Positions 33,376 through 43,195 of a DNA stretch of 64,000 nt are shown here, piece by piece (the stretch's first letter is position 1; every line of letters begins with the position of its first letter). A program made the translations under genes and the position numbers. Under the pieces are notes generated by a model that was not told the origin of the DNA, did no database searches, and saw only the letters and a program-made list of their open reading frames with translations. The stretch spans positions 1 through 64,000 of the forward strand of contig NZ_JAQZAM010000002.1 of assembly GCF_028737215.1 (NCBI RefSeq), written 5' to 3'. This stretch comes from Actinomycetospora chibensis (GTDB lineage: Bacteria; Actinomycetota; Actinomycetes; Mycobacteriales; Pseudonocardiaceae).

Positions 33376-34053
33376 GTGAGGCTGCGCCCCCACCCCGACC
33401 CCGCTCGAGGCCTGCGGGACATCGCGGCCTACGACATCAACTACGACCCGGCCGAGACCGACGGTCGCGGCTGGCACCACGATCGGGAGCGCCACCTCCT
33501 CGGCGACGAGGAGCCCGGCGAGCCCGTGCCGGGCGGGCCGTTCGACATCGCGTGCCGGCTCGTGCACGACTACGAGTTCGCCGACCCGAGGATCATGCAT
33601 GCGTACTTCCACGCCGACGCGCCGCTCGTCGGGCGGGACATGCTGCTGGAGGGCCGGTTCGTCGTCCTGCGCTTCCCGATGGGCGTGCGCGTCGACGTCG
33701 AGGTCGACGAGGTCCGCGACCGCGCCGACGGCACCCGCGAACGCTCGTGGGGCTGGAGCTACCGGACGCTCGAGCACCACCTCGAGCGCGGGCGGCTGAT
33801 CTACGAGGTGGTCAAGAACCTCGACACCGGGCGCGTGGAGTTCGTCATCACCGGAGTCTCCAGCCGGGCCCACATCCGGAACCCGGTGATCGCCCTCGGC
33901 TTCGGCGTCTTCGGCCGCTGGACCCAGACGCGGTTCTACTCCAGAGCGGGCCGACGGCTCGCCCGGCTGGTCGCGGAGGTGTACGCGGGGGGCGAGCGCC
34001 CCGTGCCCGACCGGATCGGGCCCGGCGACGTGGTGGTGGCGCCGTCGGGCTGA
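33376..34053 (+). CDS. DUF1990-like protein
   Basis: 225 aa from GTG. The C-terminal half reads SWGWSYRTLEHHLERGRLIY, EVVKNLDTGRVEFVITGVSS and GFGVFGRWTQTRFYSRAGRR, a close variant of the DUF1990 pattern. The N-terminus (DIAAYDINYDPAETDGRGWH) is polar. It pairs head-to-head with the other DUF1990 gene and converges on the PIG-L deacetylase with a 7-base gap. Function unknown. Confidence 0.75.
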   Translation: MRLRPHPDPARGLRDIAAYDINYDPAETDGRGWHHDRERHLLGDEEPGEPVPGGPFDIACRLVHDYEFADPRIMHAYFHADAPLVGRDMLLEGRFVVLRFPMGVRVDVEVDEVRDRADGTRERSWGWSYRTLEHHLERGRLIYEVVKNLDTGRVEFVITGVSSRAHIRNPVIALGFGVFGRWTQTRFYSRAGRRLARLVAEVYAGGERPVPDRIGPGDVVVAPSG

Positions 34054-34060
34054 CGCGCCC

Positions 34061-34876
34061 TCACCCCCCGGGGGTTCGCCGGCGTGCGGCCACGTCGAGC
34101 AGCCACGCCCGGTAGAGCGGTCGCAGCCGGGCCGAGCTCAGGATCGACAGGTCGTCGAGGGGCGCCCACTGTCCGGGCTGGTCGAACGTCCGGGCCCGGC
34201 CGACGAACCAGCGGTGCCGGTACGCGGTCACCTCCGTGAGCAGCTCGGCGGAGGTCACCGACGCCGCGTCGCCCCGCGCACTGCCGAACCCGAACACCGT
34301 CTCGACCCCCCGCACGGCGTTGGCGGCACGCATCGACGTCTGCAGCGCCCGGTAGTCGTTGCGGTCGTTCTCGCCCGCGTGCTGATCGAGCATCCGGGCG
34401 CTGGTGCGCAGGTGGTCCTCGCCGCACGGGACCATCAGCGTGGGTCGCGGGAGATCGGTCCAGAGCGGCCACATCCACCAGGTCAGCGGGCGCCGCGAGG
34501 TCCACACCAGCTGGCGGATCGCCCGCGCGACGGTCTCGTGACCGTGGTGCCCGTCGCGGGGGTGCGGGCCGATCACGAGCTCGGCGTCGTGGCGCTCGAC
34601 GATCCCGGCCAGCTCGCGGGTCAGGACCCTGCGGGCGCGGGAGAGGTCGTCGCCGCGGGACAGCCCGGGCAGCGACGGCGACTCCTCGTGGGTGAAGCCC
34701 GCGACGCCCAGCGCGGCCGCGAGCTCGGCGCGGCGCCGCTCGTGGTCCGCGGGACGACCGAGGCCCGCCGCGACGTTGACGACGTGCCAGCCGAGGTCCC
34801 GGAGGGACAGCAGGGTGCAGGGCGCGCCGAGGCTCTCGTCGTCGGGGTGCGGCGAGATGTGGACGACCGTGGGCAC
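34061..34876 (-). CDS. PIG-L (LmbE-like) deacetylase
   Basis: 271 aa. The metal-binding motif HISPHPDDESLGA is at the N-terminus and the second ligand is in GPHPRDGHHGHETVARA. Start is GTG with GGGAG upstream. These zinc enzymes de-N-acetylate amino sugars such as GlcNAc-derived compounds (MshB/mycothiol-type or natural-product substrates). The target here is unknown. It is cytoplasmic and monocistronic. Confidence 0.88.
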   Translation of the reverse strand: MPTVVHISPHPDDESLGAPCTLLSLRDLGWHVVNVAAGLGRPADHERRRAELAAALGVAGFTHEESPSLPGLSRGDDLSRARRVLTRELAGIVERHDAELVIGPHPRDGHHGHETVARAIRQLVWTSRRPLTWWMWPLWTDLPRPTLMVPCGEDHLRTSARMLDQHAGENDRNDYRALQTSMRAANAVRGVETVFGFGSARGDAASVTSAELLTEVTAYRHRWFVGRARTFDQPGQWAPLDDLSILSSARLRPLYRAWLLDVAARRRTPGG

Positions 34877-34999
34877 GGGGCGCTCCCGGGTCGGCGGCAG
34901 GGGCACCGAACGCTAGATCGTCGGCCGGGTCGTGGGCCCTGCATCGTCGTCGGGGCGACCGGGCACCCCCACCTGCTGTCGGCAACGGGAGGGCCACGC

Positions 35000-35191
35000 A
35001 TGTCCGCACACGAGCCCGACGACGATCCACCCGGCCGGCTGGCGGACGCGGTCGAGGACGCCCTGGAGCCCGAGCTCCGGCGGAGCCTCGCGCCCCTCCC
35101 CGACCGGCCCGACCAGGACCGCGCCCGGCGCCCGAAGGAGCGCGAGGACGAGATCCTCGAGGACCTCCGCGAGCGCTGCCACGACGAGTGA
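35000..35191 (+). CDS. Small acidic hypothetical protein
   Basis: 63 aa from ATG with GGGAGGG upstream. Strongly acidic and helical: DDDPPGRLADAVEDALEPEL, then REDEILEDLRERCHDE. No domain recognised. It lies before the ole operon but is separated from it by a 265-base spacer. Confidence 0.6.
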   Translation: MSAHEPDDDPPGRLADAVEDALEPELRRSLAPLPDRPDQDRARRPKEREDEILEDLRERCHDE

Positions 35192-35456
35192 ACTCACCGG
35201 TAGGGCACAACCGACCGCTCGGCGAGTGCGGCGAATGTCGCAGGCGGCCGACCGCCGAGAATCGCGCAACCCGTGTATTTTGCGCCGATTCCGGATTTCG
35301 CCGCGTTTGTCGGACAGTCGCGAGATCGAGCTGATCCGTTCGGCTCAGCACCGGACAGAGCGTTCCTGTTACCCGGGTTCGTGTGACCGAAAGTAGCGCA
35401 TTCAGGAAACCCCGCGCAATCCGACGGAGAATCCGCGAGTCGCGCATTCTGAGGAC
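35192..35456 (+). promoter_or_regulatory. Upstream region of the ole operon
   Basis: 265 bases of clearly lower GC than the rest (TGTATTTTGCGCCGATTCCG, TTCAGGAAAC near the end). No gene is seen. This AT-rich stretch should contain the promoter of oleABCD; no confident -35/-10 pair is claimed. Confidence 0.5.
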
Positions 35457-36485
35457 ATGCGAGCGACCAAGAGGTACACCCATGTCGCCATCCGGGGCCT
35501 GGCGCACGTGGATGCCCCCCACGTCGTCACCTCCGCCGACCTCGAGGAGCGGCTCGCGGAGGCGTTCGGGCGCTTGAAGATCAGCAACGGCCTGCTGGAG
35601 AAGCTCGCGGGCATCGTCGAGCGCCGCGTCTGGGACCCGGGGACGATGCCCAGCGAGGTCGCCGCGCGGGCCGGCGAGGAGGCCCTCGCCCGCAGCGGGG
35701 TCGCCCGCGAGGAGATCGGCGCGCTGATCAACACCTCGGTGAGCCGCGACCACCTCGAGCCCTCGACGGCGAGCATCGTGCACGGTCGCATGGAACTGTC
35801 GCCCGAGGCCGTCAACTTCGATGTCGGGAACGCCTGCCTCGGATTCCTGGACGGCATGAACGTGGTGTCGACCATGATCGAGGCCGGTGAGATCGATCAC
35901 GGCCTCGTCGTCGCCGGCGAGACCAGCCGATTCGCGATGGACTCGACGGTCGCGCGTCTCTCCGGCCCGGAGGCGTCGCGGGCGATGTTCCACGAGCAGT
36001 TCGCCACGCTGACCGTCGGCTCGGGCGCCGTCGCCATGGTGCTCTCGCGCGACGACGGATCGGACGGGCACCGCTACCTCGGCGGGCTCGGTCGCGCGTC
36101 GACGGCCGGCAACTCCGGGCTGTGCATCGGGCAGGCCGACGAGATGCGCACCGACACCAAGGGCCTCCTGATGGCCGGCATGGAGCTCGGCGGGCGGACG
36201 TGGAAGGAGGCCGTCGCGGCGTTCGACTGGGACGCCGAGGGCTACGACACGTATTGCCTGCACCAGGTCAGCAAGGTCCACACCCGCGCGGTGGCCGACC
36301 AGATGGGCCTGCCGATCGAGCGTTTCCCGTCGCTCTTCCCCCGCTTCGGCAACATCGGCCCGGCCGGGGTCCCGACGGTGCTGAGCAAGGCCGTCGAGGA
36401 CGGCACCGTCACCGACGGCTCGCGGGTGATGCTCATGGGCGTCGGCAGCGGCATCAACGCCGCGGCGGCGGAGGTGGTCTGGTGA
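35457..36485 (+). CDS. oleA: OleA: head-to-head acyl-CoA condensing thiolase
   Basis: 342 aa, KAS III/thiolase fold. The nucleophilic Cys is in VNFDVGNACLGFLDGM. The His is in YCLHQVSKVHTRA and the Asn in RFGNIGPAGVPTV. The partner loop SRDHLEPSTASIVHG carries the Glu that, in Xanthomonas OleA, reaches the other subunit. It condenses two fatty acyl-CoA molecules to a 2-alkyl-3-ketoacid. It starts a four-gene operon with 4-nt overlaps throughout, oleA-oleB-oleC-oleD, which strongly supports the call over FabH. Confidence 0.92.
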   Translation: MRATKRYTHVAIRGLAHVDAPHVVTSADLEERLAEAFGRLKISNGLLEKLAGIVERRVWDPGTMPSEVAARAGEEALARSGVAREEIGALINTSVSRDHLEPSTASIVHGRMELSPEAVNFDVGNACLGFLDGMNVVSTMIEAGEIDHGLVVAGETSRFAMDSTVARLSGPEASRAMFHEQFATLTVGSGAVAMVLSRDDGSDGHRYLGGLGRASTAGNSGLCIGQADEMRTDTKGLLMAGMELGGRTWKEAVAAFDWDAEGYDTYCLHQVSKVHTRAVADQMGLPIERFPSLFPRFGNIGPAGVPTVLSKAVEDGTVTDGSRVMLMGVGSGINAAAAEVVW

Positions 36486-37399
36486 CCGCCGCCGCCACCG
36501 TCGAGCTCGACGGCTACCCCTTCGCCCCGAAGACCGTCGAGGTCAACGGGCACGTGATGTCCTACGTCGACGAGGGCGACCCGGACGCGCCGCCGGTACT
36601 GCTCGTGCACGGCAACCCGACCTGGTCGTTCTACTACCGCTCACTGCTGCGCAGCCTCCCCGGCCTCGGCCGCCGGGTGATCGCGCCCGACCACATCGGG
36701 ATGGGCCGCTCGGACAAGCCGGCGCTGGGCGACTACCCGCACACCCTCGCCCGCCGCGTCGAGGACCTCACGGCGTTCGTCGACGCCCTCGGGCTGAGCC
36801 GCCCGATCTCGCTGGTGGTGCACGACTGGGGCGGCCCGATCGGGCTGTCCTGGGCCGCCGACCACCCCGGTGCCGTCGACCGGATCGTCGTCCTCAACAC
36901 CGGCGCGTTCCCCCTGCCCCACGACCACGGCCTGCCGTGGATGCTGCGCGCCGCCCGCCTGCCCGTCGTGAGCGACGTGCTCGTGCGGCGCCTCAACGCG
37001 TTCTCGCTCGGCGCCCTCGTGATGGGCACGGGGCAGAAGTGGCTGCCGCGCGAGGCGCGGCGCGGGCTGCTCGCGCCCTACGCCCGTCCGGAGGACCGCG
37101 TCGCCGTCCACGCGTTCGTGCAGGACATCCCGCTCGGCCCCGACGACCCGGCGCACCCGGTGCTCGAGCGGCTCGACGAGCGCCTCGCCGTGCTCGACAC
37201 CCTCCCCGTACAGGTCCATTGGGGGATGAAGGACCCGGTGTTCGACGGCGACATCCTGGCCCACCTCGAGCAGCGCCTCCCCCACGCCGAGGTGCACCGC
37301 TACCCCGACGCCGGCCACTACGTCCTCGAGGACGTCCCCGGCCCGATCGTCGAACGGGTCGGCGCCTTCCTGGCGGGGCCGTCGGCGGAGCCCGCATGA
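36482..37399 (+). CDS. oleB: OleB: beta-lactone decarboxylase (haloalkane dehalogenase-like)
   Basis: 305 aa alpha/beta hydrolase: oxyanion VLLVHGNPTWSFYYRSLL, nucleophile Asp in LVVHDWGGPIGLSWA, and the catalytic His in DAGHYVLEDVPG. Elsewhere the cis-beta-lactone made by OleC is cleaved by OleB to an alkene and CO2. The GTG start overlaps the oleA stop by 4 nt, and its stop overlaps oleC. Here OleB and OleC are separate, unlike the fusion known in some Actinobacteria such as Micrococcus. Confidence 0.92.
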   Translation: MTAAATVELDGYPFAPKTVEVNGHVMSYVDEGDPDAPPVLLVHGNPTWSFYYRSLLRSLPGLGRRVIAPDHIGMGRSDKPALGDYPHTLARRVEDLTAFVDALGLSRPISLVVHDWGGPIGLSWAADHPGAVDRIVVLNTGAFPLPHDHGLPWMLRAARLPVVSDVLVRRLNAFSLGALVMGTGQKWLPREARRGLLAPYARPEDRVAVHAFVQDIPLGPDDPAHPVLERLDERLAVLDTLPVQVHWGMKDPVFDGDILAHLEQRLPHAEVHRYPDAGHYVLEDVPGPIVERVGAFLAGPSAEPA

Positions 37400-39045
37400 C
37401 GATCCTCGACGCCGCCACCCTCGACGCGCTGCTCGACGAGCACGCGCGGTCCCGTCCCGACGCCCCGGCGCTCGTCCTACCCCGGCCGGGCCTCGGGGTG
37501 TTCGAGTCCCGGCTCGGCGAGCGCGCCACGCAGCGGGTGACGTTCGCCGAGCTCGCCCGCCGGGTCGACGACGTCGCCGCCGGTCTGCGCGCCGCGGGCA
37601 TCGGCCCGGGCACCCGGACCGCGCTGCTCGTGCCCCCGACGGCCGACTTCTTCGTGATCGCCTACGCGCTGATGCGGGTGCGCGCGGTGCCCGTCGTCGT
37701 CGACCCGGGCATCGGGCTGCGCCGCGTGCGCAGCTGCCTGGGCGAGGCGGCGCCCGAGGCGTTCATCGCCGTCCCCCGCGGCCACCTGGCGCGGCGGGCG
37801 CTCGGGTGGTGCCCGGACGCGCGGATCGCGATCTGCACCGGCGCGGCGCCGATCCCGGGGACGATCGCGCTGCGACGCCTCGAGCGGACCGGAGCCCGGG
37901 GCCCGCGGATGCCGCTCGTGGCCGAGCGCCCCGCGGGCGACCCGGCGGCGATCCTCTTCACCAGCGGCAGCACCGGCGCCCCCAAGGGCGTCGAGCACCG
38001 CGACGAGGGCCTGCTCGCCCAGGCCGGGCTCGTCGGCGGGCTCTACGGCCTCGGCCCCGGCGACGTCAGCCTCGCGACGTTCCCTCCGTTCGCGCTGTTC
38101 GGGCCCGCTCTCGGGATGACGACCGTCGTCCCGCGCATGGACCCGACCCGCCCGGCCCGCGTGGTGCCCGGCCGTCTCGTCCGTGCGGTGGAGCGCACCG
38201 GCGCGACGGTCATGTTCGGGTCGCCGGCCGTCCTCGACCGCCTCGGACGCGGCGCCCCCGACGGCACGCTGCTGCCGACGCTGCGCACCGTGATCTCGGC
38301 GGGCGCGCCGGTGCCGCGCGACGTCCAGCGTCGCGTGCTCGCCCTGCTCGCCCCGGGCGCCCAGGTGCACACGCCGTACGGCGCGACCGAGGCCCTGCCC
38401 GTCGCGACGATCGGCAGCGACGAGCTGCTCGACCTCCCCGACGACGGCATCTGCGTCGGCCGGCCGGTGCCCGGCGTCGACGTCGCGCTCATGCGCGTCA
38501 CCGACGGCCCGGTCGCCGCGCTGACGCCGGAGATGCGGGTGCCCGACGGCGAGGTCGGCGAGGTCGTCGTCCGTGGCCCCGTCGTGAGCCGCGCCTACGC
38601 CGAGCGCCCGGAGGCGACGGCGGCCGCGAAGCTCGACTGGGACGGCCGGCTCGCGCACCGGATGGGCGACCTCGCGTCGCTCGACGACGCGGGGCGGCTG
38701 TGGTTCGCCGGGCGGGTCACGCACGTGGTGCCGACCGCCGACGGACCGCTCTACAGCGTGCCGTGCGAGGAGGTCCTCAACCACGACCCCGCCGTGCGTC
38801 GCAGCGCGCTGGTCGGCGTCGGCTCGGGCCCCGTCCGCGAGCCGGTGTTCGTCGTCGAACTGGCCGACGGCGCCCGCCTGACCGACGACGTGCGCGAGCG
38901 CCTGCTCGCCGTCGCCGCCTCCGACGCGCGGACCCGCACCGTGCGCACCGTCCTGCCCCACCGTGCGCTGCCCGTCGATCCGCGTCACAACTCCAAGATC
39001 GACCGCGAGGCTCTCGGGCGCTGGGCTGCCGGGGAGCTGTCGTGA
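37396..39045 (+). CDS. oleC: OleC: beta-lactone synthetase (AMP-dependent ligase family)
   Basis: 549 aa, ANL superfamily: P-loop ILFTSGSTGAPKGVEH, VHTPYGATEALPVATIG, HRMGDLASLDDAGRLWFAGR and the C-terminal lysine in HNSKIDREALGRW. OleC adenylates the 2-alkyl-3-hydroxyacid and closes it to a beta-lactone. It overlaps oleB and oleD by 4 nt. Its sequence alone would be called an acyl-CoA ligase; the operon settles the assignment. Confidence 0.92.
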   Translation: MTILDAATLDALLDEHARSRPDAPALVLPRPGLGVFESRLGERATQRVTFAELARRVDDVAAGLRAAGIGPGTRTALLVPPTADFFVIAYALMRVRAVPVVVDPGIGLRRVRSCLGEAAPEAFIAVPRGHLARRALGWCPDARIAICTGAAPIPGTIALRRLERTGARGPRMPLVAERPAGDPAAILFTSGSTGAPKGVEHRDEGLLAQAGLVGGLYGLGPGDVSLATFPPFALFGPALGMTTVVPRMDPTRPARVVPGRLVRAVERTGATVMFGSPAVLDRLGRGAPDGTLLPTLRTVISAGAPVPRDVQRRVLALLAPGAQVHTPYGATEALPVATIGSDELLDLPDDGICVGRPVPGVDVALMRVTDGPVAALTPEMRVPDGEVGEVVVRGPVVSRAYAERPEATAAAKLDWDGRLAHRMGDLASLDDAGRLWFAGRVTHVVPTADGPLYSVPCEEVLNHDPAVRRSALVGVGSGPVREPVFVVELADGARLTDDVRERLLAVAASDARTRTVRTVLPHRALPVDPRHNSKIDREALGRWAAGELS

Positions 39046-40058
39046 AAGCACTGGTCACCGGCGGGGGCGGGTTCCTCGGGGGCGCCGTCGTCGACGCCCT
39101 GCTCGCCCGCGGTGACGAGGTCACGAGCCTCGCGCGCGGGGCGTACCCCGCGCTCGCCGACCGGGGTGTCCGGGTGCTGCGCGGCGACCTCGCGGAGCTC
39201 GGAGCGGCGCGCGAGGCCGTCACCGGTCAGGACGTCGTGTTCCACGTCGCCGCGAAGGCCGGCATCTGGGGCACCGACGCCGACTTCCACCGCAGCAACG
39301 TCGAGGGCACCCGCGTGCTGCTCGCCGCCTGCCGCGAGGCGGGCGTCGGGCGGTTCGTCTTCACCAGTACCCCGAGCGTCGTGCACACCGGCGGCGACAT
39401 CGCCGGCGGCCACGAGGGCCTCCCGTACGCCACGCACTTCGACTCCGCCTACCCACGCACGAAGGCCGAGGCCGAGCGTCTCGTCCTCGCCGCGAACGGC
39501 CCCGCCATGGCCACGACGGCCCTGCGACCGCACCTCGTCTGGGGTCCCGGCGACACCCAGCTCGTGCCGCGCATCCTCGACCGGGCGCGGGCGGGGCGAC
39601 TCGCGCTGGTGGGGGACGGGTCCGCGGTCATCGACACGACCTACATCGACGACGCGGCGCGCGCCCACCTCGACGCGGCCGATTCGCTCGCGACACCCGG
39701 CGCGGTCTGCGCGGGGCGGCCGTACTTCGTGACCTCCGGCGACCCGCGCCCGGTCCGCGAGCTCGTCGACGGCATCCTCGCCGCCGGCGGGATGGGGCCG
39801 GTCCGGGTCACGGTGCCGCGACCCGTGGCGGTGGCCGCCGGCGCGGCGGTGGAGACGGTGTGGCGGGGTCTCGGCCTCGCGTCCGCGCGGGGCTGGATCG
39901 CCGACCCCGGCGAGCCGCCGATGACCCGCTTCCTCGCCCGTCAGCTCGCCACCGAGCACTGGTTCGACATCACCGCCGCTCGCCGTGACCTGGGCTACGC
40001 CCCGCAGGTCGACCTCGACGAGGGGTTCGCGCGCCTGGCGATCTCGCTGGCCGGGTGA
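39042..40058 (+). CDS. oleD: OleD: NAD(P)-dependent 2-alkyl-3-ketoacid reductase
   Basis: 338 aa extended SDR: LVTGGGGFLGGAVVDALLAR near the N-terminus, HVAAKAGIWG, Ser in FTSTPSVVH and Tyr-Lys in DSAYPRTKAEAE, and RPHLVWGPGD. It reduces the OleA product before OleC. The GTG overlaps the oleC stop by 4 nt; last gene of the operon. It looks like a 3-beta-HSD/epimerase family member, which is the usual OleD assignment. Confidence 0.92.
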   Translation: MKALVTGGGGFLGGAVVDALLARGDEVTSLARGAYPALADRGVRVLRGDLAELGAAREAVTGQDVVFHVAAKAGIWGTDADFHRSNVEGTRVLLAACREAGVGRFVFTSTPSVVHTGGDIAGGHEGLPYATHFDSAYPRTKAEAERLVLAANGPAMATTALRPHLVWGPGDTQLVPRILDRARAGRLALVGDGSAVIDTTYIDDAARAHLDAADSLATPGAVCAGRPYFVTSGDPRPVRELVDGILAAGGMGPVRVTVPRPVAVAAGAAVETVWRGLGLASARGWIADPGEPPMTRFLARQLATEHWFDITAARRDLGYAPQVDLDEGFARLAISLAG

Positions 40059-40060
40059 GT

Positions 40061-40089
40061 CCGGCCGGCTGTCGAGAACCGCCGGCCGG
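40061..40089. terminator. Hairpin after the ole operon
   Basis: Perfect 9-bp inverted repeat CCGGCCGGC / GCCGGCCGG with an 11-base loop, 3 bases after the oleD stop. No T-run follows, so termination is probable but not certain. Confidence 0.6.
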
Positions 40090-40147
40090 CTCCGTCCCCG
40101 GGGTACGAGCGGCCACGACGGGCCGCGGGACCCGCGGGAGCGCCAAC

Positions 40148-40606
40148 ATGTCGATCAAGCGGATGGACCACGTCGGCGTCGTCGTCGACGACCTCGAGGC
40201 CGCCGTCGCCTTCTTCGTCGAGCTGGGCGTGGAGCGGGTGGGCGGCGCGGAGTCGGTCGAGGGCGCGTGGGTGGACCGGGTGGTCGGGCTCGAGGACGTC
40301 CACGTCGAGATCGCCTTCGTGGCGACCCCCGACGGGCACAGCCGGCTGGAGCTCACGCAGTTCCACCGGCCCGTGGCCACGACCACCGAGCCGAGCGCCC
40401 CGGCGAACACGCAGGGGCTGCGTCGCCTGATGTTCGCCGTCGACGACATCCACGACACCGTGACACGGCTGAAGGCCCACGGGGGCGAGGTCGTCGGCGA
40501 GATCGCGCCGTACGAGGACGTGTTCCTGCTCTGCTACCTGCGCGGACCGAGCGGCATCATCGTCGCCCTGGCCGAGGAGATCGGCGGAGCTACCCCGCCC
40601 CGGTGA
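40148..40606 (+). CDS. VOC family protein (glyoxalase/epimerase-like)
   Basis: 152 aa with two VOC modules: MDHVGVVVDDLEAAVAFFVE, LELTQFHRP and a second RRLMFAVDDIHDTVTRLKAH with a LRGPSGIIVALAEE end. It resembles methylmalonyl-CoA epimerase and glyoxalase-like proteins; a metal-dependent lyase or isomerase of unknown substrate. It is separated from oleD by a hairpin and overlaps the SRPBCC gene by 17 bases at the 3' ends. Confidence 0.85.
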   Translation: MSIKRMDHVGVVVDDLEAAVAFFVELGVERVGGAESVEGAWVDRVVGLEDVHVEIAFVATPDGHSRLELTQFHRPVATTTEPSAPANTQGLRRLMFAVDDIHDTVTRLKAHGGEVVGEIAPYEDVFLLCYLRGPSGIIVALAEEIGGATPPR

Positions 40607-41213
40607 AGAAGGCGATCGTGCGGTCCGCGCGGGCCTTCGCGTCGTCGGGGTCGAGGCCGTCCGCGATGCTCACCGGCACCCAGGCCTCGCCGACCGCCGT
40701 CAGGAACGCGGCGCCCTCGGGCGAGGCGGCCCACTCCTCGGACTCGCCGTGCGGGGTCCCGCCGTCGTCGAGGTGCCAGGCCAGGCCGACCAGCCCCAGG
40801 TCCCACCCCATCCCGGTGGCGGCGGGGCCATAGCGGGGCCAGTGCTCGTCGTCGGGGTGGAAGACGTGCGTGAGGTCGAGCCGGGCGCCGTCCCCGTCCG
40901 GGCTCAGCCGGAGCTCGATCCAGCTGACGTCACCGTCGTACTCCCAGGTCGCGTCGAGCGCGTGCGGGGCCTCGCAGGCGGTGATCGTCCCGCCGGCCTG
41001 ACCCTCGAGCTGGTAGCGCCCACCGACATGCAGGTCGCCGTGCACGGGCAGGAACCACCGCGCGAGGCGGGCGGGGTCGGTGCACGCCGCCCAGAGGTCC
41101 TCGACGTCGGTGGGGTACCGGCGGGAGAGGGTGACGACGCGTGCGGTGCCGGCCTCCAGCTCGCGCGTGCCGAGCCGACGGTGGGTCGCGTCGATCTCGC
41201 GGCGGATGTCCAC
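40590..41213 (-). CDS. SRPBCC / AHSA1-domain protein
   Basis: 207 aa, START-like helix-grip fold: TLSRRYPTDVEDLWAACTDP, ARLARWFLPVHGDLHVGGRY, and LDLTHVFHPDDEHWPRYGPA. Such proteins usually bind hydrophobic ligands and are often next to an ArsR regulator; none is intact here. Its upstream spacer carries a palindrome and the remains of a TetR-like gene. The 3' end overlaps the VOC gene by 17 bases. Confidence 0.88.
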   Translation of the reverse strand: MDIRREIDATHRRLGTRELEAGTARVVTLSRRYPTDVEDLWAACTDPARLARWFLPVHGDLHVGGRYQLEGQAGGTITACEAPHALDATWEYDGDVSWIELRLSPDGDGARLDLTHVFHPDDEHWPRYGPAATGMGWDLGLVGLAWHLDDGGTPHGESEEWAASPEGAAFLTAVGEAWVPVSIADGLDPDDAKARADRTIAFFTGAG

Positions 41214-41233
41214 GGCCGCAGTGTTCAGCCGAT

Positions 41234-41245
41234 ACTTATATAAGT
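41234..41245. promoter_or_regulatory. Perfect 12-bp palindrome upstream of the SRPBCC gene
   Basis: ACTTATATAAGT, AT-rich in a GC-rich background and 20 bases upstream of the SRPBCC start. On the minus strand it is preceded by TTGACT, a plausible -35 box overlapping the palindrome. Likely an operator or promoter core; the matching regulator is not known. Confidence 0.5.
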
Positions 41246-41373
41246 CAAGACGGGTTTAGCGAGCGGACCTCGCCCTCCACGGCGTCGAGGACCTCGGTGA
41301 GGGCGCCGGCGTCCGGGTCCTCGATCCAGCGGGTGAGGGCCTCGCCGACGCAGGCGATCCCGATGCCGGCGAT
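41245..41373 (-). pseudogene. Truncated C-terminal tail of a TetR-like regulator
   Basis: In the minus frame ending in TGA at 41245-41247 the sequence reads IAGIGIACVGEALTRWIEDP then DAGALTEVLDAVEGEVRSLN, like the last helices of TetR-family proteins. The body and DNA-binding part are absent; upstream the frame enters unrelated sequence at ~41375. The remnant abuts an integrase remnant running the other way. Short, so the family call is an inference. Confidence 0.45.
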
Positions 41374-41381
41374 GCTCGGCC

Positions 41382-41495
41382 ATCGAAATGACCATGACCG
41401 TCTACGGCCACGTCAGCCTCGACAGCCAGCGCGAGGCCCTCGGCCGGCTCGACGACCAGCTCGGCACACCCACCGACGACCAGCCCGAGGAGTGA
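41382..41495 (+). pseudogene. Truncated C-terminus of a tyrosine recombinase (integrase)
   Basis: Reads IEMTMTVYGHVSLDSQREAL followed by GRLDDQLG and an acidic tail with a TGA stop. This is the characteristic end of phage-type integrases, including the catalytic Tyr-Gly-His region. The rest of the enzyme is missing, and upstream sequence is unrelated. It runs toward the 3' end of tRNA-Ser, 75 bases away, the usual position of an integrase beside its attachment site. Confidence 0.7.
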
Positions 41496-41569
41496 TCCGT
41501 TGCTGTCATCGACCGCTGTCACCGGATCATGGAGCGACTGTAGAGACCGTCCGCACCGGCTCTCACCTG

Positions 41570-41654
41570 CGGAAGCGGGGGGATTCGAACCCCCGGTCAC
41601 TCTCGTGACGTCCGCTTTCAAGGCGGATGCAATCGGCCGCTCTGCCACGCTTCC
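41570..41654 (-). tRNA. tRNA-Ser (TGA)
   Basis: 85-nt class II tRNA: acceptor GGAAGCG/CGCTTCC, anticodon loop CTTGAAA with TGA, a long variable arm, and T-arm GGGGGTTCGAATCCCCC. CCA is not encoded. Its 3' end is a typical integration target; an integrase tail lies beyond it. Confidence 0.96.
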
Positions 41655-41673
41655 GCGGGTCAGGGTAGGGCGA

Positions 41674-42141
41674 TCAGCCGTCGGCGCGCAGCTTGGTCAC
41701 CACACGCTCGAACACGTCGCCGACGACGCGGCGCTCGTGGTCGTCGAGCAGGTCGACGAAGTGGGCCCGCACGCCTTCGAGGTGATCGGGCGCGGCGCGC
41801 TGGAGGACGTCGTAGCCGTGGGCGGTGAGCACGGCGAAGACGCCCCGGCCGTCGGAGGGGCAGAGCTCGCGGCGCACGAGGTCGTCGGCCTCGAGGCGGG
41901 ACACCTGGTGCGACAGGCGGGACTTCGAGGCCACGACCTCGTCGGCGAGCAGGCTCATCCGCATCCGGTGGTCCTGCTGCTCGGAGAGCCGCACGAGGAT
42001 CTCGTAGTCGGCCAGCGAGATGCCGTGAGCGTCCGACAGCTCGCGGTTGAGGCGGCCCGCGAGCAGCGCCTGCCCCGCGATGTAGTTGCGCCACGCGTGC
42101 CACTCGACGGGGTCGAGCCAGCGCGGTTCCTGCTCGGCCAT
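41674..42141 (-). CDS. MarR-family transcriptional regulator
   Basis: 155 aa, winged helix: NRELSDAHGISLADYEILVR, LSEQQDHRMRMSLLADEVVA, SKSRLSHQVSRLEADDLVRR and a wing ELCPSDGRGVFAVLTAHG. The call fits MarR proteins such as those binding small phenolic compounds. It is divergent from the quinone oxidoreductase gene 43 bases away and may regulate it and itself; this is an inference from orientation. Confidence 0.92.
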   Translation of the reverse strand: MAEQEPRWLDPVEWHAWRNYIAGQALLAGRLNRELSDAHGISLADYEILVRLSEQQDHRMRMSLLADEVVASKSRLSHQVSRLEADDLVRRELCPSDGRGVFAVLTAHGYDVLQRAAPDHLEGVRAHFVDLLDDHERRVVGDVFERVVTKLRADG

Positions 42142-42184
42142 CCGACCAGGGTACTGCGGGCGCGGCCCGCTAGCGTCGCGCTTC

Positions 42185-43195
42185 GTGTACGCGATCAGCA
42201 TCCGTGAGCCCGGCGGCCCCGACGTCCTCGAGTGGACCGAGCACCCCGACCCCGAGCCCGGGCCGAACGAGGTGGTCGTCGACGTCGTCGCGACCGCGGT
42301 CAACCGCGCCGACGTGATGCAGCGTCAGGGGATGTACCCGCCGCCGCCCGGGGCGTCGGAGGTCCCGGGCCTCGAGTGCTCGGGCCGCATCGCCGCGCTC
42401 GGTCCCGACGTCGAGGGGTGGGCCGTCGGCGACGAGGTGTGCGCGCTGCTCGCGGGTGGCGGCTACGCCGAGAAGGTCGTCGTCCCCGTGCCCCAGCTGC
42501 TGCCCGTGCCGCGCGGGGTCTCGCTGACCCAGGCCGGCGGGCTGCCCGAGGTGGCCTGCACGGTGTGGTCGAACCTCGCGATGACCGGCCACCTGAGCGA
42601 GGGCGAGACGCTGCTCGTGCACGGCGGGACCGGGGGCATCGGCACCCACGCCATCCAGGTCGGCAAGGCGCTCGGCGCGCACGTGCTCGCCACGGCGGGC
42701 TCGCCCGAGCGACTCCAGGTCTGCCTCGACCTGGGCGCCGACCTCGCGATCGACTACCACGACGACCTGCCCACCGAGGTCGCGAGCGCCACCGACGACC
42801 GCGGTGTCGACGTCATCCTCGACAACATGGGCGCCTCGGGGCTCAAGGCGAACCTGGCCTCGCTCGCCACCGGCGGCCGCCTCGTGATCATCGGGCTGAT
42901 GGGCGGGCCGAAGACGGAGATCAACCTCGCGACGCTGCTCACCAAGCGCCTCAGCGTCGGCGCCACCAACCTGCGCGGACGCGCGGTCGAGGAGCCCGAC
43001 GGCAAGGGCGCGATCGTGTCCGCGGTGCGCGAGAACCTGTGGCCGCTCGTGGAGCAGGGGGCGGTGCGCCCCGTGGTGCACGAGTACCTGCCGGTCGCCG
43101 AGGCGTCCCGAGCTCACGCGGCGCTGGACGAGGGCGGGGTCGTCGGCAAGCTGATCCTGGTCGTGCGCGACGAGGACGGGGTGCTGGGCGGCTGA
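42185..43195 (+). CDS. NADPH:quinone oxidoreductase (zeta-crystallin-like MDR)
   Basis: 336 aa, zinc-free MDR: AVNRADVMQRQGMYPPPPGA, GDEVCALLAGGGYAEKVVV, cofactor-binding LLVHGGTGGIGTHAIQVGKA, and ATAGSPERLQVCLDLGAD. It probably reduces quinones or enones with NADPH. It corresponds in position to M. tuberculosis Rv3777, opening the syntenic block. The GTG start is divergent from the MarR gene. Confidence 0.92.
   Translation: MYAISIREPGGPDVLEWTEHPDPEPGPNEVVVDVVATAVNRADVMQRQGMYPPPPGASEVPGLECSGRIAALGPDVEGWAVGDEVCALLAGGGYAEKVVVPVPQLLPVPRGVSLTQAGGLPEVACTVWSNLAMTGHLSEGETLLVHGGTGGIGTHAIQVGKALGAHVLATAGSPERLQVCLDLGADLAIDYHDDLPTEVASATDDRGVDVILDNMGASGLKANLASLATGGRLVIIGLMGGPKTEINLATLLTKRLSVGATNLRGRAVEEPDGKGAIVSAVRENLWPLVEQGAVRPVVHEYLPVAEASRAHAALDEGGVVGKLILVVRDEDGVLGG

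Follow-up and report, generated by a model that had tools for sequence, protein, structure and literature searches.

Two questions are raised by a four-gene ole operon in an actinobacterial chromosome: what it makes, and whether it belongs to the place where it stands. The operon was analyzed in a 64,000-nucleotide stretch of Actinomycetospora chibensis (assembly GCF_028737215.1, contig NZ_JAQZAM010000002.1, positions 1 to 64,000), here called the window, in which positions 35457-40058 of the forward strand hold a complete oleABCD set of four separate genes. It is quite likely that this is a complete system for long-chain internal olefins which forms a self-contained cassette, found in 18 of 18 genomes of the genus, relocated in their chromosomes and probably exchanged between species. 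The cassette would comprise about 245 bp of its own upstream region, with an element occurring once per genome, and the four ole genes.

The first gene, oleA (35457-36485, +), has an ATG start and encodes an acyl-CoA condensing thiolase of 342 amino acids. It is followed by oleB (36482-37399, +; GTG start, 305 amino acids) for a beta-lactone decarboxylase of the alpha/beta-hydrolase fold, oleC (37396-39045, +; ATG start, 549 amino acids) for an AMP-ligase type beta-lactone synthetase, and oleD (39042-40058, +; GTG start, 338 amino acids) for a 2-alkyl-3-keto acid reductase. The open reading frame coordinates agree with the gene order and 4-nt overlaps reported in a first-pass annotation of the sequence. 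The three overlaps read GTGA at 36482-36485 (oleA/oleB), ATGA at 37396-37399 (oleB/oleC), and GTGA at 39042-39045 (oleC/oleD), and they probably couple the translation of the four genes.

The OleA of the window matched the solved OleA of Xanthomonas campestris (3row) with an E-value of 2.1e-90 and 151 identical residues out of 335 aligned. Glu101, Cys127, His269, and Asn299 align with Glu117, Cys143, His285, and Asn315 of that protein, the catalytic residues of that protein, respectively (numbering of the 358-residue construct). These are the Cys, His, Asn, and partner-loop Glu that the first-pass annotation had seen, and Glu117 is named in the available part of PMC7064751. The pattern EPxx[AS]x(14,18)DxxNACL and the catalytic residues occurred in 18 of 18 OleA sequences of the genus. 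Pfam assigns ACP_syn_III domains to OleA, as would suit an ordinary FabH-type ketosynthase of a fatty-acid or polyketide pathway. However, the FabH model TIGR00747 reached only 88.9 bits (cut-off 292.1), compared to 405.7 bits for the OleA-type NCBIfam model NF006720 (cut-off 285), and Glu101 and the OleA pattern are present with OleB, OleC, and OleD encoded downstream. A FabH identity of the first gene is thus extremely improbable and was ruled out by the curated models and residues.

Motifs were similarly conserved in the other three proteins. In all 18 genus sequences, OleB carried the HDWGG nucleophile elbow and the catalytic His motif and OleC carried the P-loop; the NSKIxR motif of OleC was present in 17 of 18. 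The 17 OleD sequences all had the YxxxK pair, and 16 of them had TGxxGFLG. OleC also passed the broader model NF006754 with 555 bits (cut-off 478). Ratios of nonsynonymous to synonymous substitution (dN/dS) ranged from 0.03 to 0.26 for the four ole genes across five sister pairs, and the genes are under purifying selection.

In the pathway as outlined in the available part of PMC7158056, two acyl-CoAs are joined by OleA and the keto acid is reduced by OleD, after which OleC makes the beta-lactone and OleB frees CO2 and the olefin. By analogy with this pathway, OleA of the window's organism would carry out a head-to-head condensation of two acyl-CoAs, and the 2-alkyl-3-keto acid formed would be reduced by OleD. 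OleC would then close the beta-lactone ring at the expense of ATP and OleB would decarboxylate the beta-lactone to a long-chain internal olefin. The chain length, earlier proposed as C27-C31, cannot be read off the sequence. The pathway could also end at the beta-lactone without forming an olefin, as in lipstatin- or nocardiolactone-type clusters; OleA, OleC, and OleD are common to the beta-lactone and olefin pathways (PMC7064751, available part), and the OleB fold houses many other activities. Yet oleB is intact in the operons of the genus, with its elbow and His motif in every one of the 18 sequences, whereas the beta-lactone clusters covered in the same part of PMC7064751 have no oleB. A beta-lactone end product is therefore disfavored by the oleB of the window's operon, and we regard it as very unlikely.

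Upstream of oleA lies a region of low G+C content (35212-35456, +; outer edge approximate) that resembles, in register, the oleA upstream regions of other species. The 200 bp before oleA contain 59.5% G+C, rank 3 among the 6,380 overlapping 200-bp segments of the 64 kb, which bears out an earlier remark on an AT-rich promoter region; across the 18 genomes the corresponding values were 59.5-67.5%. Within this region, a dyad-like element, CCTGTTACC-N18-AGTA, is located at 35365-35395 (+). CCYGTTACY occurred upstream of oleA in 18 of 18 genomes, starting 82-115 bp before the ATG, and RGTA followed 18 or 20 bases after it in all 18, as read off the sequences. It is this fixed spacing of 18 or 20 bases by which the two arms form a dyad. 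A second copy of CCYGTTACY was not found in the 18 genus ole loci, and six loci outside the genus lack the motif in the 260 bp preceding oleA. In six of six whole genomes scanned, CCTGTTACYN{18,20}RGTA had a single match per genome, always before oleA, versus 0 matches of the backward-pattern control in five genomes and 1 in G006. The element may act as a promoter or operator. By eye, TATGAT was seen between the arms in G002, G004, G008, G009, and G013 and TACGAT in G017, and one could guess that a promoter lies here, flanked by the two halves of an operator. Folding of the upstream DNA was unremarkable (z -1.24).

OleA was identified in all 18 genomes of Actinomycetospora, which include the window's own and that of A. 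callitridis, and the full operon was visible in 17 of them (the G010 contig stops within oleC). The nearest named OleA loci were those of Actinomycetospora, with A. callitridis the closest at 96% OleA identity (the window's own genome was possibly left out). Flanking contexts of the 18 operons were compared by translated similarity over as much as 10 kb on the upstream side and at most some 6 kb on the downstream side, and the operons fell into nine contexts. Three shared contexts are defined by upstream similarity only, and downstream DNA is almost absent for G010 and G011. The same context was found in 15 of 153 genome pairs and in 0 pairs across the species clades A and B, which were split at 100/100 both by the arabinosyltransferase EmbC plus a quinone oxidoreductase (QOR) in 18 genomes and by RpoB in 15 of the 18. 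The largest context (G002, G004, G008, G013, and G017) has one flanking gene in common with G005 and G010. In this context (L044, L045, L049, L051, and L054), a tRNA-Thr(CGU) stands upstream of oleA, at about 2 kb in L045.

Distances between the ole sequences did not follow the species clades. Clade A was divided into A3 (G003, G011, and G014) and A7 (its remaining genomes), and the ole sequences of A3 were nearer to clade B than to A7. The ratio of the A3-B distance to the A3-A7 distance was 0.66 for OleABCD (bootstrap 0.62-0.71) and 0.59, 0.60, 0.69, and 0.77 for OleA, OleB, OleC, and OleD, respectively, versus 2.38, 2.25, and 1.85 for the host genes EmbC, QOR, and RpoB (RpoB 1.38-2.62, with A3 represented by G003 alone). 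Clade A was missing from four of four single-gene ole trees, three of which grouped A3 with B at bootstrap values of 80-82, and it was rejected for ole in a topology test using four outgroups (p 0.0154). Because no context was common to the two clades and the ole distances ran opposite to those of EmbC, QOR, and RpoB, these comparisons make a transfer of ole between species clades likely, although the outcome of the topology tests is mixed. The same gene set at different chromosomal places suggests that ole and its control region have been passed around as one unit.

In the window and in A. callitridis, ole fills a variable interval that abuts the 3' end of a tRNA-Ser(UGA). The tRNA gene (41569-41654, -) forms the right edge of the interval with its 3' end facing ole, and a small open reading frame of 63 amino acids (35000-35191, +) forms the left edge; homologues of the latter adjoin the left backbone gene DUF1990 in G003, G011, and G014. 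All 18 genus genomes have counterparts of the window's embC and QOR genes. Apart from the window's genome and A. callitridis, each of the remaining 16 has both a MarR gene and the tRNA-Ser(UGA) beside QOR. The stretches fetched around this site in the 16 genomes gave no ole protein match at E 1e-8, the single strong OleA match of every one of them lying elsewhere in the genome. The earlier view of an insertion into an otherwise conserved block thus holds within the genus. For the wider synteny proposed with M. tuberculosis Rv3772-Rv3795, the Pfam names in the window would be in line: an ABC transporter, an aminotransferase, and two arabinosyltransferases of the EmbC type.

Of these 16 genomes, G009 and G010 have contigs that stop too early to show DUF1990; among the other 14, with a long enough fetched stretch, it was present in 12 and missing from the DNA fetched for G007 and G012. 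The gap between DUF1990 and the tRNA was widest in A. callitridis (8.7 kb), followed by the window (7.5 kb), and measured 0.69-6.6 kb in the 12 others with DUF1990, and the distance from the left-edge open reading frame or its homologue to the tRNA was 437 bp in G003 versus 6,381 bp in the window. Next to the tRNA lies an integrase remnant (41388-41495, +) of 35 codons plus stop, a tyrosine integrase C-terminus that matches the end of the 385-amino-acid integrase of G007 at 91% identity and is too short for a Pfam match. Full tyrosine integrases of 385 amino acids are located at tRNA-Ser(UGA) in G007 (L170, 10745-14080) and G012 (L175, 2444-3601); Pfam matched the G007 integrase as Phage_integrase, and G006 holds a truncated frame. 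Positions 41375-41700 of the window were 92-93% identical to G007, G012, and G006. A sharp breakpoint was observed at 41374/41375, with the left side common with A. callitridis and the right side with G007, G012, and G006. An FtsK-like frame upstream in G007 scored 21 bits, under the Pfam cut-off of 24, and the integrase loci of G007 and G012 look like an actinomycete integrative element. The site therefore looks like an integration hotspot, and an integrase-bearing element may have brought ole in. Among RNA families searched in 33900-42500, the tRNA alone reached its gathering score. ARAGORN called a tRNA-Ser(CGA) at 42343-42424 (+) within an oxidoreductase gene, which is probably a false call.

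Vertical inheritance from the genus ancestor would account for these patterns differently, with general genome rearrangement behind the contexts and either uneven rates or old paralogues behind the reversed distances. The occurrence of the operon throughout the genus, the contexts common to sister pairs, and a synonymous divergence (dS) of ole resembling that of host genes are in line with it. However, the order of the emb-QOR block, the sole control for context stability in the genus, is kept across the same genomes, ratios of 0.59-0.77 for the ole genes stand against 1.85-2.38 for three host genes, and clade A is absent from every single-gene ole tree. We therefore consider vertical inheritance unlikely. 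Several results nevertheless weigh against an olefin cassette that was relocated and exchanged. Monophyly of clade A for ole was not rejected with one outgroup (p 0.101) or unrooted (p 0.224), which also favors vertical inheritance, and clade B for ole was not rejected with four outgroups (p 0.198). No direct repeat of the tRNA end was found at the far edge of the interval (repeats of at least 16 nt, 12-nt seeds, 33900-42500). No OleA match at E 1e-40 was found in 72,556 plasmid records, and plasmid carriage of ole was dropped on this empty search. OleC reached 512.6 bits on the olefin beta-lactone synthetase model NF045786 (cut-off 900) and OleD 426.8 bits on the OleD model NF042422 (cut-off 580; next non-OleD model 114). 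The names of these specific models refer to Xanthomonas and Shewanella types, and we infer that the shortfall reflects distance. The four gene identities first proposed are upheld, OleA by its structure match and model pass, with OleC and OleD below their specific cut-offs. A further idea is that olefin synthesis in the genus is kept by exchange, the cassette standing at about nine contexts, being swapped between clades and read by a postulated dedicated regulator with a single site per genome; we regard this as possible but doubtful.

The separation of oleB and oleC, already pointed out in the first-pass annotation, holds throughout the genus, in 18 of 18 genomes. In Pseudonocardiaceae (Pseudonocardiales), where Actinomycetospora is placed, 23 of 297 sampled genomes had an OleA match at E 1e-60, comprising 18 Actinomycetospora and 5 genomes of one other genus. 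OleA matches occurred in 47 of 298 genomes of the order sample, 2 being Actinomycetospora, and in 24 of 396 genomes of the phylum sample, the window's genome among them. All loci from the genus, family, and phylum searches and 30 of the 47 matches of the order search were typed as fused or separate. Beyond the genus, 44 loci of Actinomycetota were fused, 12 were separate (9 distinct OleA sequences), and 4 had no class; the window's family holds fused and separate types alike. An OleA tree of 69 rows contained a separate actinobacterial lineage of 19 rows (support 99/96) and a fused lineage of 48 rows (100/99), including the 4 rows without class. The two xanthomonad outgroup rows were labelled separate in this tree, gene-layout typing having left L078 undecided. 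A single change of state sufficed, and operons with separate genes and with fused oleBC are two OleA lineages, by sequence, among the actinobacterial loci examined. The separate lineage beyond Actinomycetospora consisted of metagenome-assembled genomes titled Frankiaceae, Egibacteraceae, Nitriliruptorales, and Actinomycetota bacterium. Xanthomonad homologues scored above fused actinobacterial ones for OleB (215 vs 149 bits), OleC (319 vs 184), and OleD (261 vs 175), whereas OleA was not closer to the xanthomonads (296 vs 313 bits), all based on few loci. Two further loci (L038 and L060; G097, Pseudonocardiaceae) hold an OleA homologue with no match to OleB, OleC, or OleD of the window within 8 kb downstream and may belong to another pathway.

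A VOC-family gene (40148-40606, +) lies 3' of oleD and adjoins ole in the window and A. callitridis only. A PIG-L deacetylase-type gene (34061-34906, -) is located near ole as well; among the compared loci, that of A. callitridis alone gave a match to it near ole. Membership of the VOC, PIG-L, and SRPBCC neighbours in the operon was dismissed, as they stand near ole solely in these two genomes.

In a 2020 survey, the available part of which was considered here, ole genes are confined, among Gram-positive orders, to Micrococcales, and spread by transfer was rare (PMC7158056); the same part also has "mostly" Micrococcales and two actinobacterial clusters. The oleBC fusion is typical of Micrococcales according to the available part of an mBio paper (PMC7064751). 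Judged by titles and abstract openings, with most subscription papers outside this coverage, the operon is described in none of the papers found on ole genes, olefins, and Actinomycetospora. The present operon extends complete oleABCD to Pseudonocardiales and, within the set of actinobacterial loci compared, reveals a second ole lineage that lacks the fusion. Its separate, tightly packed enzymes are material for probing the effect of the OleBC fusion, and the upstream element offers a handle for finding a regulator of bacterial olefin synthesis. If the trait is kept by exchange, it would be core in content and mobile in position, contrary to the published view of rare transfer.

The chromosomal site can be compared to tRNA-targeting integrative elements of actinomycetes (AICE type), with which it shares the tRNA site and an integrase remnant, full integrases being present in G007 and G012; in contrast to these, the interval of the window has no intact integrase, transfer gene, or flanking repeat. 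The oleACD beta-lactone clusters of lipstatin and nocardiolactone have OleA, OleC, and OleD homologues in common with the window (PMC7064751, available part), but the window includes oleB. Four separate genes and the same OleA catalytic residues are shared with oleABCD of Xanthomonas-type Gammaproteobacteria, the OleB of the window being 43% identical to that of Xanthomonas massiliensis (L078) and OleC and OleD 43 and 50% identical to those of Pseudoxanthomonas (L080), respectively. The genes overlap by 4 nt in the window with nothing between them, whereas in L080 oleA, oleB, and oleC are set apart by other sequence. The fused oleA-oleBC-oleD operons of Actinomycetota represent the same pathway in the same phylum, at 42-53% OleA identity across the loci found; the window differs from them in its separate oleB and oleC and in an OleA that belongs to another lineage.

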